Shown here piece after piece: positions 1 to 11,454 of a stretch of 20,156 bases of DNA. The notes under the pieces were generated by a model that was not told the origin of the DNA, did not search any database, and saw only the letters and a list, made by a program, of their open reading frames with translations. The stretch is from a virus. The stretch covers positions 1 to 20,156 of IMG/VR virus record IMGVR_UViG_3300001460_000289. The stretch is one strand, 5' to 3'. The position numbers and the translations under genes were made by a program. Position 1 is the first letter of the stretch. The number at the start of each line of letters is the position of its first letter.

Positions 1-219
1 AAAGCCCTCGGCCTTTGCCGCCTCGATGCTTTCAAAAGCAAAGAGCTGAACAAACCATTCGCCATCGCCGTCTAGGTCTGCGCAGATGGATGGGCAAGCA
101 TCGTTATGATAACTGCTATCTTTCCATTCGATGTTAGGGTGAACGGTTGCCTCCGCACCGTAATGAGAAAACCAATAATCGTTAGCGTCATCGCGTAATT
201 GTGTAATGTAGTGTTTCAT
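1..219 (-). CDS. Hypothetical protein, leftward, 3' end beyond window
   Basis: The minus strand is open from an ATG at 219-217 to the window edge, giving at least 73 residues (starts MKHYITQLRDDANDYWFSHY). A GGGAG ribosome site lies about 8 bases upstream of the ATG, and a good leftward promoter lies upstream (254-281), so the frame is very likely real. The peptide is acidic and rich in aromatic residues and has no motif I recognise. It is transcribed away from the structural operon and may belong to an early or regulatory arm, which is inference from orientation only. The C-terminus is missing from this window. Confidence 0.7.
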   Translation of the reverse strand, partial: MKHYITQLRDDANDYWFSHYGAEATVHPNIEWKDSSYHNDACPSICADLDGDGEWFVQLFAFESIEAAKAEGF

Positions 220-253: not shown

Positions 254-281
254 CATATAGGCAAGCGTTGCCTGGTGTCAA
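254..281 (-). promoter_or_regulatory. Leftward sigma70-type promoter
   Basis: Read on the minus strand there is a perfect -35 box TTGACA (281-276), a 16-base spacer and a -10-like TATATG (259-254). Transcription would begin near 247 and leave a short leader before the ATG at 219, whose ribosome site is GGGAG. The spacer consists mostly of a perfect inverted repeat (259-273), suggesting that a repressor could block this promoter. The -10 box is imperfect (4 of 6). Confidence 0.55.
259..273. promoter_or_regulatory. Inverted repeat in leftward promoter spacer, candidate operator
   Basis: AGGCAA-GCG-TTGCCT is a perfect 6-bp inverted repeat with a 3-base centre, lying between the -35 and -10 boxes of the leftward promoter. 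The position suits a dimeric repressor. It is not followed by a T-run, so a terminator is unlikely. No regulator gene is seen in the window. Confidence 0.4.
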
Positions 282-299
282 CACATAAAAAGCAAACAA

Positions 300-316
300 T
301 GTAAAAAAAGTTTACA
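300..316. promoter_or_regulatory. Inverted repeat over rightward -35 box, candidate operator
   Basis: TGTAAA-AAAAG-TTTACA is a perfect 6-bp inverted repeat with a 5-base centre. Its right arm is the -35 hexamer of the rightward promoter. A protein bound here would directly compete with RNA polymerase for the structural operon. The sequence differs from the repeat at 259-273, so two regulators, or one with loose specificity, would be needed. Confidence 0.4.
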
Positions 317-339
317 CTGTGCGCGTGCGTGTATATATT
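311..339 (+). promoter_or_regulatory. Rightward sigma70-type promoter for the structural operon
   Basis: TTTACA (311-316), a 17-base spacer and TATATT (334-339) match the TTGACA/TATAAT consensus at 5 of 6 positions in each box with ideal spacing. Transcription would start near 346, giving an untranslated leader of about 245 bases before the small terminase ATG at 591. It is the best promoter visible in the window and, with few gaps downstream, could serve the whole rightward operon. Confidence 0.6.
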
Positions 340-590: not shown

Positions 591-968
591 ATGACGAAGC
601 TAACGAAGTTTACCACCCAGCAGATACTGAGCGACCTTGCTGACGGCTATACTATGGTCGATGCTTGCAAGAAGGCTGGGATAAGCAGGCAGGCTCTTTA
701 CAAGCGTATGAAGGGCAACAACGAGCTTGATGTGTCTGTGCGCATTGCGCAGCAGTATAGTGCGGAGAAGGCGCTAGAGGAGCTTGATAAGCTGTATGAC
801 GATGCCTTACACAAGCGCAAGGACTACGATGCTCATGTGCTAAGAGACTATGCGCACCATGTACGCTGGAAAGTGCAGAAGATTATCCCTGAGCGCTATG
901 GAGAGCAGAAGAACAAGGCGGGGGTAGAGGTTACTGATGGCGGCATTCGCATTATGTGGGAGAGCTAG
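591..968 (+). CDS. terS: Terminase small subunit
   Basis: A 125-residue DNA-recognition subunit of the packaging motor. Residues about 8-42 form a helix-turn-helix (core DACKKAGISRQALYKRM), the DNA-binding part of small terminases. A helical middle follows, and the tail contains a motif like 'W.vqKiiPerYG' that is frequent in phage small terminases. Its place directly before the large terminase supports the call. Family knowledge: small terminases form rings that bind the packaging site and deliver DNA to the large subunit. The start ATG has GGAG about 8 bases upstream. The stop codon abuts the next ATG (TAGATG). A generic HTH regulator is the alternative but fits the context less well. Confidence 0.85.
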   Translation: MTKLTKFTTQQILSDLADGYTMVDACKKAGISRQALYKRMKGNNELDVSVRIAQQYSAEKALEELDKLYDDALHKRKDYDAHVLRDYAHHVRWKVQKIIPERYGEQKNKAGVEVTDGGIRIMWES

Positions 969-3825: not shown

Positions 3826-5415
3826 ATGGAAGATTTAGCCAAGAGCCTAATTAGTCGCGGCAACAGTATTGTTTCCCGCAGAGATAACTGGGATACGCAT
3901 TATCAAGAGCTTGCGGATTACATGCTACCCCGCAAAGCCGACATCGTTAAGAAACGGTCACGCGGCGAAAAGCGCATGGAGCTTATCTATGATGGCACTG
4001 CGCTACAGGCTGTAGACCTTTTGTCTGCAAGTCTGCACGGTATGCTGACGAGTGGGGCTACTCCTTGGTTCCATCTTGATATGAAAGACACCGATGTAGG
4101 CCGTGACGATGATGTGCGCGAATGGCTACAAGACTCATCAACACGAATGATTAGGGCTTTTAATCAGTCAAACTTCGAGACTGAAATCCATGAGATGTAT
4201 GTAGACCTAGTTGTATTTGGCACAGGTTGCATGTTTGTTGAGATGGACGAGGGCCAGTTGCGGTTCAGCACACGCCACATTTCAGAGTTCTACCTACAGG
4301 AAAACCAGTTTGGGTTAGTTGATACCGTCTTCCGCAAGTATAAACAGCCAGCAAGACAGGCTGTTCAGCGTTTCGGCATTGAGAATGTAGGCGAGTTTAT
4401 TCGCAAGACACATGAGAAGAAGCCGGATGAAGAAGTAGAAATCATGCACGTTGTTATGCCACGGGCTGACCGTGACACGACAAAGGTAGATAACAAGAAC
4501 ATGCCTTTTGCTTCGTACTATATTTGTATGAATAGCAGCATGATGATTTCAGAGAGTGGCTTCCAAGAGTTTCCTTATATTGTGCCGCGCTTCTTGAAGG
4601 CAACAGGCGAAATCATGGGTCGCTCTCCGGCAATGGTAGCCCTGCCTGATGTTAAGATGCTGAACTTGATGTCTAAGACAATTATCCAAGCAGCCCAGAA
4701 ACAGATTGACCCGCCGTTACTTGTTCCTGATGACGGGTTTATTATGCCTATTCGCACACAGCCTGGTGGCCTTAATTTCTTTAGGTCTGGTTCTAGGGAT
4801 ACAATTACGCCTCTAAACACGGGCGCTAACATTCCTATTGGCTTGAGCATGGAAGAGCAACGCCGTGGTGCTATTCGTTCAGCGTTCTACGTTGACCAGC
4901 TTCTTTCCGGTGGTGCGCCAAACATGACAGCCACAGAGGTTGTGCAAAGGCAAGAAGAGCGTATGCGGGTCATTGGCCCTGTTCTTGGCAGGCTGATGAA
5001 TGAGATGCTTCGTCCTTTGGTAGACCGTGTGTTTGCCTTGATGTTGCGTGAGGAGATGCTTGCTATCCCTCCTGAGCTTTTGCAAGGAACAGATATTGAT
5101 ATTGAGTATGTATCGCCTCTGGCCCGTGCGCAAAAGTCTAGCAGTCTTAACAGCACTATGCAGGCTCTTGAAATCCTACTGCCTCTAGCACAGGCGTTGC
5201 CAGTAATTGACCACCTCGACCCTGATGGTTTGGTGCAGCATGTTACTGATTCTCTTGGTGTTCCTAAGACTACATTGCGTTCTAGCCGTGAGGTTGCGCA
5301 GATGCGTCAGGAACGAGCAGCAGCAGAGCAACAAGCAATGCAGCGTCAGAGTGAGCAAGAGGATGTATATACGGCAGCGCAAGCGGCGCAAGCAGTTAGG
5401 ATGGTTGGGCAATGA
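3826..5415 (+). CDS. Portal protein (head-to-tail connector)
   Basis: A 529-residue protein of the T7 gp8-type connector family, close to the 536 residues of T7 gp8. The N-terminal part shows the family pattern: W.thyqelAdYmLPRkad near residues 22-40, then YDGTALQAVDLLSASLHGMLTS and PWFHLDM (about 60-90). A central region has ARQAVQRFG, and a long C-terminal stretch is helical and rich in Gln and Ala (about 480-529). Portals form a dodecameric ring at one capsid vertex. They nucleate assembly with scaffold, serve as the docking site of the terminase and later bind tail tubular protein A. GGGG lies about 6 bases before the ATG. Its end overlaps the next gene by ATGA. Confidence 0.95.
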   Translation: MEDLAKSLISRGNSIVSRRDNWDTHYQELADYMLPRKADIVKKRSRGEKRMELIYDGTALQAVDLLSASLHGMLTSGATPWFHLDMKDTDVGRDDDVREWLQDSSTRMIRAFNQSNFETEIHEMYVDLVVFGTGCMFVEMDEGQLRFSTRHISEFYLQENQFGLVDTVFRKYKQPARQAVQRFGIENVGEFIRKTHEKKPDEEVEIMHVVMPRADRDTTKVDNKNMPFASYYICMNSSMMISESGFQEFPYIVPRFLKATGEIMGRSPAMVALPDVKMLNLMSKTIIQAAQKQIDPPLLVPDDGFIMPIRTQPGGLNFFRSGSRDTITPLNTGANIPIGLSMEEQRRGAIRSAFYVDQLLSGGAPNMTATEVVQRQEERMRVIGPVLGRLMNEMLRPLVDRVFALMLREEMLAIPPELLQGTDIDIEYVSPLARAQKSSSLNSTMQALEILLPLAQALPVIDHLDPDGLVQHVTDSLGVPKTTLRSSREVAQMRQERAAAEQQAMQRQSEQEDVYTAAQAAQAVRMVGQ

Positions 5416-8110: not shown

Positions 8111-8476
8111 ATGGAACAAAACAACGATTTCCGTTGGGATTTAAAAGTTGGTCAGCTACAAGAGCAGTGGTTAGGAGAGCTTTTAGAAAATGTACCTATA
8201 GAGGTGAAACGTGATTTTATGGCTTCGCAAACTGGGAATGTGTTTGTGGAGTTTTTTTGTAGGAACAAACCGTCTGGCATAGCGACTACACAGGCGCAAT
8301 ACTGGGCGTTTATACTTAATGAAGAAACTGTGGTATTATTGCCAACAGTTAAATTGAAGATACTAGCTAGGCAAGCATACAAAGAAGGTCGCAGAGCCAG
8401 AGGCGGCGATAAGGGTGCAAGCCAAGGCGTGTTGATAAATGTAGAGAGGTTGGTACGAGATGCCATCAGTAGTTGA
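8111..8476 (+). CDS. Putative PD-(D/E)XK-like nuclease-fold protein
   Basis: A 121-residue protein with 'FRWDLKVGQLQEQWLGELL' (about 7-25), IEVKRD (30-35), GNVFVEFFCR.KPSGIATTQAQYWAF (about 42-67) and 'LLPTVKLKILAR' followed by GGDKGASQGVLI (about 98-109). An early helix with Glu18 and an E-x-K strand (Glu31, Lys33), then Asp35 and a VEF strand, resemble the PD-(D/E)XK nuclease fold, and similar phage proteins near tail genes share the EVK.D...GN..VE...kPSGI pattern. The order of acidic residues is not canonical, so activity is uncertain. ATG follows AGGG. It overlaps the tail tubular A gene by 17 bases. Confidence 0.55.
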   Translation: MEQNNDFRWDLKVGQLQEQWLGELLENVPIEVKRDFMASQTGNVFVEFFCRNKPSGIATTQAQYWAFILNEETVVLLPTVKLKILARQAYKEGRRARGGDKGASQGVLINVERLVRDAISS

Positions 8477-9056
8477 TATTTGTAACGAGGCTATGGACTT
8501 GCTTGGTGCTGCAACTATTACCTCGCTAACTGAAAACTCCAAAGAAGCAAGATTGTGTAACCGCCGCTTTGAAACTGTGCGTGACGCTGTTCTTCGGGCA
8601 CATCCTTGGAATGCAGCGATTGCCCGTGCTGATTTAGCGCAAGACAGCGCAACGCCTGCTTTTGGGTTTAACTTTCAGTACACACTTCCAAATGACCCAT
8701 ACTGTTTACGGGTGCTGTCTTTCTGGAACGTAAACGTAGACAATGAGCTTACACCGTATGACAGCCAAGTTATGTACAAGATTGAAGGCCGTAAAATCCT
8801 TAGCAATGAAGAGACATGCAAGATTATATATGTTTCACGGGTAACAGACACAGAGCAGTACGATGCGTTGTTATCCAGCACCATAGCGCACAGATTAGCC
8901 TCTGAGACTGCTTATGCAATTACAGGCAGCAACAGTATTGCGCAGCAGATGTTTAGTTTATACGAAACCCGCATCCGCGAAGCACGTTCTATGGATGCGA
9001 TGGAAGGCCAGCCAGACAAAATGATTGCAGATGATTTTATTAACATAAGGTTCTAA
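8460..9056 (+). CDS. Tail tubular protein A (T7 gp11-like adaptor)
   Basis: A 198-residue protein, near the 196 residues of T7 gp11. The N-terminus follows the family pattern: 'sVvdiCNeAmDLLGAatItSLtEnSkEArlCnrrfetvRDavLRahPWnaAiaraDLA' (residues 2-61). The rest is strand-rich with FQYTLPNDPYCLRVLSFWN. In T7 these proteins form the ring between portal and nozzle. It is followed by tail tubular protein B with a 1-base gap, as in T7. The start overlaps the preceding gene and uses a GAGAGG inside it. Confidence 0.92.
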   Translation: MPSVVDICNEAMDLLGAATITSLTENSKEARLCNRRFETVRDAVLRAHPWNAAIARADLAQDSATPAFGFNFQYTLPNDPYCLRVLSFWNVNVDNELTPYDSQVMYKIEGRKILSNEETCKIIYVSRVTDTEQYDALLSSTIAHRLASETAYAITGSNSIAQQMFSLYETRIREARSMDAMEGQPDKMIADDFINIRF

Positions 9057-9057
9057 G

Positions 9058-11454
9058 ATGGCGCGTGTATCTAGTATTGTTACCAACTTCCGCGCTGGCG
9101 AATTGTCTCCGCGTCTGGAAGGCCGTATTGACTTGCAAAAGTACAACGAGGCCGCGCAAACCTTGCAGAACATGCTAGTGTTTCCGCAGGGTGGCACGAC
9201 ACGCAGACCAGGCACTAAGTTTGCTGGCAGGTCAAAGGACGGTGGCAAAGTAAGGATTGTTAACTTTGAGTTTAGTGATGAGCAAGCATATGTGCTTGAG
9301 TTTGGTGTTAATTATATACGGTTCTTCAAAGACGGCGGCATACTAACAGAGGCCGTTAAAACCATTACAGCAATCACTAAGGCTAACCCAGCAGTTGTAA
9401 CGTCTAATTCTCATGGCTTCTCAAACGGAGATAGGGTGTTTATTAGCAGTGTTGTGGGTATGACTCAGGTAAACAACCTAGAATTTACTGTAGCTGGCGC
9501 AACAACTAATACGTTTCAATTATCCGGCGTAAACAGCAGTGCTTACACAGCTTACTCATCCGGCGGCACGGCTGGTAAGATTGTGGAGGTCACAACCACA
9601 TATAACGCCACAGATATATTCGAGCTTAATCATGCCCAATCAGCAGACGTACTTTTTTTAGTTCATAAAGACCATGAGCCTGCAAAACTTACACGAACCA
9701 CAGCGACTAGCTTTACTTTGGCTGACATAGACTTTGTTGATGGCCCTTACCTAGACGAAAACATTACTGACACTACAATTACAGCTAGTGCAAATACTGG
9801 CACAGGCATTACATTAACTGCATCTGCTAGCTTGTTTGAGTCAGGCCATGTAGGTGCGATATTTCAGTTTAGGGAAAATGTCCAGATTGGGCATGAGGCA
9901 TGGGCGGCATCAACAGCTTATGCACAAAATGATTTAGTGCATTTTAATGGGAACCTCTACAAGAAGACAGACTCAGGCAGCGACACATCAGGCAATCAAC
10001 CGCCAGTTCACTTAGAAGGCTCTGAGACATACGGTGTAATTACTTGGCAGTATCAACATAGTGGCACTGGATTTGTTAAAATAACTGCTGTAGGAAGTGC
10101 TACTTCAGCCACAGCAAACGTACAAGAAAATAACTTTCTTGTGTTGCCTGCCGTGGCTACTGCTGGAACTACGCAATGGTCAGAAGGTGCCTTTAGCATA
10201 AAAAGGGGCTACCCAAGGGCAATAGGTTTTTATGAAGAGCGCCTTTACCTTGCTGGCACAACACATCAGCCTCAATCTATATTTGGGTCAGTAACAGCAG
10301 ACTTTGAGAATCACACACCTGGCACAGAAGACGATGCCGCCGTAAACATTACGATTGCGTCTGACCAAGTAAATGTTATCAAGCATCTTTTGCCTGCGCG
10401 TTTTTTGCAAGTGCTGACGACTAGCTCAGAGTTTACCTTATCTGGCGGTACAGGAACTACTCCCGTAACGCCTACCAACATTAATGTGTTGCGCGAAACC
10501 ACATTTGGCTCATCTGACATTCGCCCGTTACGAGCAGGCAACAGCACTATCCTAATTCAGAAGGGACTTGAGAAGGTTAAAGAGATTACCTTTGATTTGG
10601 ACACAGACGGACTACTAGGCGTTGACTTGTCTATCCTAGCTGACCATCTGCCGCGCGGCGGGATGACTGATATGATTTGGCAGCAAGAGCCTGAGCTTAT
10701 CCTGTGGTTTGTACACAGTGATGGCGGTCTTATTGGCCTTACTTATGACCGTGCAAACGGGGCAGTCGGCTGGCACGACCACGACCTTGGCGGCTCTGGA
10801 ATTGTGGAAAGCATTACAGCTATACCAAGCGGGGCAGAAGACCAAGTGTATCTTTCAGTAAAGCGCACTATAAACGGGGCTACTGTGCGTCACATCGAAA
10901 CTTTAACGACAATAGATTTTGGCGATGATGTCGGGGATGCGTTCTACGTTGATAGTGGCCTTACATATAGCGGTAGCGCAACAACCACTATTACAGGCTT
11001 AAACCACCTTGAGGGGGAGACTGTCGCTATCCTAGCTGACGGCGCGGCTCATGCTGATAAGACTGTTAGTGGCGGCAGTATTACGCTAGATAGGAGTTCC
11101 TCAAAGGTTCATGTTGGCTATAGCTACTCGTCTATTGTAGAAACATTGCGCATGGAAGCTGGTGCAGATGACGGGATTGCACAGGGTAAGATTAAGCGTA
11201 TCCACGGTGTAACAGCAAGATTCTTTAAGTCTGTGGGTGCAGAGATTGGGCCGGACACAGACAACCTAGACCGTTTGCCATTCCGTGACAGTAGTATGAA
11301 CATGGACACTGCCATTCCATTGTTTAGCGGTGACAAAGAAATCTTTTTCCCGTCTGGGTATGACAATGATGCGCGGGTTGTTATCCGGCAGAATCAGCCT
11401 CTGCCAATGACAGTGTTAGCGATTGTGCGGAGGTCTAATACATTCGATGCTTGA
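9058..11454 (+). CDS. Tail tubular protein B (T7 gp12-like nozzle)
   Basis: A 798-residue protein, matching the 794 of T7 gp12. The N-terminal signature is FRAGELSPRLEGRIDLQKYN (11-30) with 'lqNmlvfPqGGttRRPGTkFag'. Two segments look inserted: residues about 106-176 (ITKANPAVVTSNSHGFSNGD, a beta module rich in Gly, Ser and Thr) and about 278-343 with W...tAYaqnDLVhfnGnLYkk and a later W, resembling a small chitin-binding-type carbohydrate module. The C-terminal half has nozzle-type beta strands and ends with a PLTVLAIVRR-like strand (PMTVLAIVRRS). It forms the distal tail tube and may touch cell-surface glycans. It overlaps the next gene by 8 bases (ATGCTTGA). Confidence 0.92.
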   Translation: MARVSSIVTNFRAGELSPRLEGRIDLQKYNEAAQTLQNMLVFPQGGTTRRPGTKFAGRSKDGGKVRIVNFEFSDEQAYVLEFGVNYIRFFKDGGILTEAVKTITAITKANPAVVTSNSHGFSNGDRVFISSVVGMTQVNNLEFTVAGATTNTFQLSGVNSSAYTAYSSGGTAGKIVEVTTTYNATDIFELNHAQSADVLFLVHKDHEPAKLTRTTATSFTLADIDFVDGPYLDENITDTTITASANTGTGITLTASASLFESGHVGAIFQFRENVQIGHEAWAASTAYAQNDLVHFNGNLYKKTDSGSDTSGNQPPVHLEGSETYGVITWQYQHSGTGFVKITAVGSATSATANVQENNFLVLPAVATAGTTQWSEGAFSIKRGYPRAIGFYEERLYLAGTTHQPQSIFGSVTADFENHTPGTEDDAAVNITIASDQVNVIKHLLPARFLQVLTTSSEFTLSGGTGTTPVTPTNINVLRETTFGSSDIRPLRAGNSTILIQKGLEKVKEITFDLDTDGLLGVDLSILADHLPRGGMTDMIWQQEPELILWFVHSDGGLIGLTYDRANGAVGWHDHDLGGSGIVESITAIPSGAEDQVYLSVKRTINGATVRHIETLTTIDFGDDVGDAFYVDSGLTYSGSATTTITGLNHLEGETVAILADGAAHADKTVSGGSITLDRSSSKVHVGYSYSSIVETLRMEAGADDGIAQGKIKRIHGVTARFFKSVGAEIGPDTDNLDRLPFRDSSMNMDTAIPLFSGDKEIFFPSGYDNDARVVIRQNQPLPMTVLAIVRRSNTFDA

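Follow-up and report, generated by a model that had tools for sequence, protein, structure and literature searches.

The question raised by this locus is how transcription is divided between a leftward gene arm and a virion operon that diverge from a single intergenic region. The window, that is, the whole 20,156-nt stretch of DNA analysed, is the entire virus record IMGVR_UViG_3300001460_000289, and its genes include a terminase, a head-tail adaptor and a major head gene (PHROGs). The window TerL is 49-53% identical to its 20 best matches listed among cultivated phages, all of them Pelagibacter phages. On these TerL matches and on PHROGs families, the terminase and head genes are homologous to those of HTVC010P-type phages, and by this homology the window goes with that group. 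Its G+C content, though, is 47% against 32% for HTVC010P, and the host may therefore differ from that of HTVC010P. Megablast of the window found no match in the phage collection. Relatives were sampled through TerL (80 of 447), through TerS (38/38) and through the HTH protein described below (80 of 103), and later again through TerS (80 of 314). The features discussed are collected in Table 1.

Table 1. Features of the divergent region, in window positions (columns: feature, position, strand, remarks)
first leftward gene	1..219	-	73 aa visible, truncated at the record end, without PHROGs family
leftward promoter PL	254..281	-	-35 TTGACA 276-281, -10 TATATG 254-259, 16-nt spacer
operator O_L (putative), GGCAAGCGTTGCC	260..272		inside the PL spacer; core of the 15-bp palindrome 259-273 (palindrome 1)
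possible second operator O2, AGCAAACAATGTA	291..303		31 bp from O_L; weak
palindrome 2, TGTAAA-AAAAG-TTTACA	300..316		covers the PR -35; intact in 6/13 close relatives
rightward promoter PR	311..339	+	-35 TTTACA 311-316, -10 TATATT 334-339, 17-nt spacer
terminase small subunit (TerS), opens the virion operon	591..968	+	PHROGs phrog_1482, E 3.3e-8

The first-pass annotation had described a divergent promoter pair with a different palindrome over each promoter. Its hexamers, spacers and the 29-nt distance between the two -35 hexamers are all where it placed them, and so is the palindrome over the PR -35. Palindrome 1, AGGCAA-GCG-TTGCCT, is also in place, but it does not merely fill the PL spacer as had been claimed, its first A belonging to the -10 hexamer. 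Judged from their sequence, both promoters are sigma70-like and of the host type, and transcription would start near 247 for PL and near 346 for PR. Taken by themselves, such patterns are not rare. Promoter-like sites number 20 in the window against 25.6 expected (a list from which PL is absent, its -10 ending in G), and perfect inverted repeats with 6-bp arms and a 3-5 nt loop number 25 against a shuffled mean of 16.2 (40 shuffles, range 8-28). Three of these repeats lie in the intergenic region 220-590, and three or more occurred in 1.65% of 2000 shuffles. Since promoter and inverted-repeat matches are thus unexceptional in the window, the judgement was based on relatives.

The close-relative set comprised 13 distinct sequences, the window counted in, whose TerS is at least 91% identical. 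PR is retained in all 13, with TTTACA, TTGACA or TTTACG at the -35, a spacer of 17-18 nt and TATATT at the -10. The core of palindrome 1, GGCAA-N3-TTGCC, is unbroken in all 12 that extend across it (L020 is truncated); its complete 6-bp arms are found in 3/12. The annotation had proposed looking for the palindromes elsewhere; in the 20 records scanned, the core of palindrome 1 was found in nine, with one site per genome in each. In other clades a different palindrome occupies the position of O_L, its two arms changing in concert, and in most clades a -35-like TGTCAA/GTCAA adjoins it. The core in the PL spacer is therefore very probably an operator, a putative assignment supported by the 12/12 conservation, by the symmetric arm changes and by the co-variation described below. 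None of the literature matches listed contained a description of it; an earlier account of the regulator in HTVC010P-type phages may still exist. The sequence could also have been kept merely as a promoter spacer or through common descent, with no protein binding it, and close relatives are indeed alike throughout this region. We regard this reading as very unlikely, given that the arms change symmetrically between distant clades and in view of the shuffled controls given below; moreover, L087 keeps the palindrome although its -10 differs.

Palindrome 2 fared differently. As a second, distinct operator it was rejected on conservation (Table 1), and it is probably an accident of an A-tract lying beside the PR -35.

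A search for a repressor gene on the leftward arm, which the annotation had suggested, produced a candidate in the relatives, referred to here as HTH-A; the record of the window ends before it. HTH-A is a Cro-like HTH protein of 57-64 aa encoded on the strand opposite TerS. Both genes were found in at least 89 loci, making at least 52 distinct pairs, 1.8-3.6 kb apart. The HTH_3 domain scores 35.2 bits in L109 and 40.3 bits in L025, above the curated cut-off of 23. The predicted structure (pLDDT 95.7, recognition helix at 28-36) consists of a DNA-binding domain and nothing more, and the model together with its fold matches gives a lambda-repressor-like helical fold. These matches are led by P22 c2, followed by HigA2 and Aca2, with a best E of 3.5e-3 and none below 0.001. 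The 434 repressor aligns over 5-51 without gaps, and Aca2 is among the sequence matches (E 3e-6). HTVC010P has no HTH-A by the HTH-A profile, and two query sequences found in cultivated phages only matches below 60% identity, with E of about 1e-4 to 1e-2. At least one HTH_3 protein is present in 11/11 near-full-length relatives. In 10 of these 11 (the full-length G009-G018) there is a second one on the opposite strand; G001, which carries the operator, has a single HTH_3 match above the cut-off. On the leftward arm of G001, a C5 cytosine methyltransferase gene accompanies several small open frames that have no match in PHROGs. In L109 an enzyme of this type is likewise encoded on the HTH-A strand (8243-9130, minus strand), and the product of 4468-4944 (minus strand) has an HTH domain like the C-terminal one of DnaA. 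A Q-like antiterminator suspected in L109 (E 0.0017) was dropped, Pfam giving it no support.

HTH-A is likely to be the binder of O_L, as a candidate put forward on the co-variation of its residue 32 with the operator. In loci with an RT[IV]X helix the PL spacer carries NGCA-N5-TGCN. A site scoring at least 10/11 beside a -35-like motif was found in 36/39 of these RT-class loci versus 20/1950 dinucleotide shuffles; when the -35 condition was left out, the same score was reached in 39/39 loci versus 306/1950 shuffles. Residue 32 (the X of the helix), which is expected to face the DNA in this protein family, goes with the outer operator base: R or K with G, Q with C, and G, S or I with T. The HTH-A proteins of L106 (R), L131 (Q) and L055 (I) represent three of the residue classes, and GGCAAGCGTTGCC, CGCAATGGTTGCG and TGCAAGACTTGCA the corresponding operator classes. 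The rule, for whose fitting most of the data were used, holds with automatic labels in 37/39 loci for the left arm, 37/39 for the right arm and 36/39 for both, the misses being L116, L077 and L168. With five labels set by hand (L116, L077, L164, L168 and L171), the identity of the outer base is fully captured by alignment column 32 (1.370 bits, against 1.245 for the next column). These hand-set labels entered the column-information and tree analyses, and the recount above was made with automatic ones. Permutation over HTH clusters gave P 0.0007 at 80% identity and 0.007 at 60%, for a rule fitted to these same data. On the TerS tree, from which L183, L190 and L116 were left out, the independent pairs follow the rule in 4/4 and 3/3 cases, numbers that fall short of significance (sign test 0.125 and 0.25).

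Sister contrasts point the same way. L055 (I, outer T) differs in this manner from L057, L059 and L078 (R, G), and the second site beside PR changes too; likewise L123 (R, G) differs from L065 (Q, C). In the loci that initially lacked a resolved site, the rule holds by inspection. Among loci with an RT[IV]X helix fetched later by TerS, 9/9 fit at their best site, most of them coming from clades already represented and two of them, L206 and L207, being identical at 399/400 upstream bases. In this set, L196 obeys the rule beside PR alone, and L212 has an asymmetric PL site that carries the outer T on a single arm. Other helices were accompanied by other sites. TAACC-N3-GGTTA was matched at 8 or more of its 10 bases in 9/9 loci with QAIW-class HTH proteins and in 0/4 QAVY loci, where other imperfect palindromes were seen by eye. 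L221 (helix RCYQ) is an exception, with outer base T; in L249 and L250 (RAIF) the only site is a weak one, and no clear operator site was found in L233 (RTYQ).

These data also bear on whether the PL palindrome might be bound by a host regulator and not by a phage protein. The pairing of HTH-A with O_L is one of sequences, and a TerL scan of bacterial genomes for the host found no relative. A host regulator is nevertheless highly improbable, O_L co-varying as it does with residue 32 of a phage protein. Furthermore, one clade (L091-L100) shows neither HTH-A nor the palindrome in the available sequence, which reaches up to about 8 kb to the left of TerS in one contig.

A further reading is that HTH-A also has a direct effect on PR, exerted at O2, by which expression of the virion operon would go up or down. 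The O2 pattern lies at +31/+32 in 10/12 close relatives covering O_L, the full core is present in L087, L008 and L013, in which a change from TGTAAA to TGCAAA breaks palindrome 2 and completes the O2 core, and the distant L052 has a perfect copy at +32. In the window, however, O2 has 5/6 core bases and 2/5 symmetric pairs, which is at chance level for a search of such length, and the pattern is missing in L015 and L012 despite a conserved PR. O2 is therefore regarded as no more than possible, and its direct action on PR appears unlikely. In the sister group L057, L197, L202 and L232 the PR -10 is immediately followed by a second, perfect operator, so that PR is probably repressed there too; no site was found at that place in the window.

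Taken together, these observations make it likely that PL is active early and is then closed by HTH-A, a product of the arm it serves, in a Cro- or Aca-like autorepression. Early in infection, host RNA polymerase would start at PL and transcribe the leftward arm, and HTH-A, whose gene lies 2-3 kb downstream there, would accumulate. Since O_L lies between the -35 and the -10, an HTH-A dimer bound there should exclude polymerase, and the early arm would thereby switch itself off. The location of HTH-A downstream on the strand served by PL is what suggests negative autoregulation, a single continuous transcript being assumed. The virion operon would be driven by PR, on which any effect of HTH-A in the window would be indirect or via O2.

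The annotation's two-way switch is thus retained in part: the divergent promoters, the leftward operator and a candidate regulator stand, but the second operator and a choice of the lysis-lysogeny type are not supported. Under such a choice, each palindrome would bind its own factor and a stable decision between the two arms would follow. The divergent layout and the two HTH_3 proteins on opposite strands in 10/11 near-full-length relatives would suit it, and yet palindrome 2 is so often broken, the operator-bearing G001 has one HTH_3 match above the cut-off, and HTH-A comprises no more than a DNA-binding domain. Moreover, neither the tyrosine integrase domain PF00589 (0/11) nor the serine resolvase domain PF00239 (0/11) was found in the near-full-length relatives, the window itself being a fragment. 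We consider a lysis-lysogeny switch very unlikely, and an early leftward arm that represses itself would be the better fit.

Known systems offer several parallels. Aca autorepressors are described as small HTH proteins of an early phage operon, which has an inverted repeat in its core promoter, at times joined by another beyond the core promoter (PMC9410906). O_L is similarly an inverted repeat placed in the core promoter of the HTH-A arm, if one transcript is assumed; this likeness lies in the operator layout and the Aca2 matches, not in an Aca-family model, and none of the genes in the arm has been assigned as an anti-CRISPR. PY54 Cro is described as binding one palindrome with a specificity set by peripheral base pairs (PMC4488713). 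HTH-A resembles it, together with 434 and P22 c2, in its HTH_3 domain, the gapless alignment to 434 and the top fold match to P22 c2. In contrast to lambdoid Cro/CI, the operator here sits in the promoter of the regulator-encoding arm, and the 11 relatives show no integrase and no sign of lysogeny. As a parallel among HTVC010P-type pelagiphages, early and late regions, two transcriptional regulators and the lack of a viral RNA polymerase are reported for Skadi-1 (PMC10504331).

Several other elements were noted around the intergenic region. In L085, L082 and L013 the leader preceding the first leftward gene (216-248) is found again elsewhere on the leftward arm. That gene differs between relatives, with tblastn matches only in L013, L015, L088, L039, L062 and L085; leader and variable first gene look like a gene cassette site. 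The stretch 431-480 holds a conserved block, CCTATCATAGTGTGGCAAAAATGCAACA, and after it a partial direct repeat; the clade that lacks HTH-A has this block too, and it is perhaps a packaging or leader element. The conserved leader block was rejected as a sigma54 promoter for its wrong spacing, judged by eye. At 489-575, a G-run and a C-run able to pair are followed by TATATGTGTTAA and ACACACAG, and similar elements precede TerS in distant clades. The contig ends of relatives cluster 136-231 nt upstream of TerS (left ends fall at 150-199 nt in 9/92), reflecting a terminus or an assembly break; the peak being broad, genome ends are not claimed.

In a wider and more speculative reading, for which the chances are modest, HTH-A with O_L and O2 would form a self-contained early-to-late timer in a widespread marine phage group. 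HTH-A would close PL and so release or activate the neighbouring PR, its specificity would have been re-coded repeatedly through residue 32, and the guarded arm would hold changing host-takeover or anti-defence genes. If this were true, the operator classes would resemble heteroimmunity groups among co-infecting phages. With the leftward arm read as an early self-limiting operon, its small genes would become candidates for host takeover or anti-defence. The element itself is probably an autorepressor of the Cro or Aca kind together with the operator it binds, notable for a natural series of matched specificities. Through it, this uncultured group of marine phages would gain a definite regulatory element that can be tested, and the natural series of matched repressor-operator pairs would make single recognition-helix changes directly testable.
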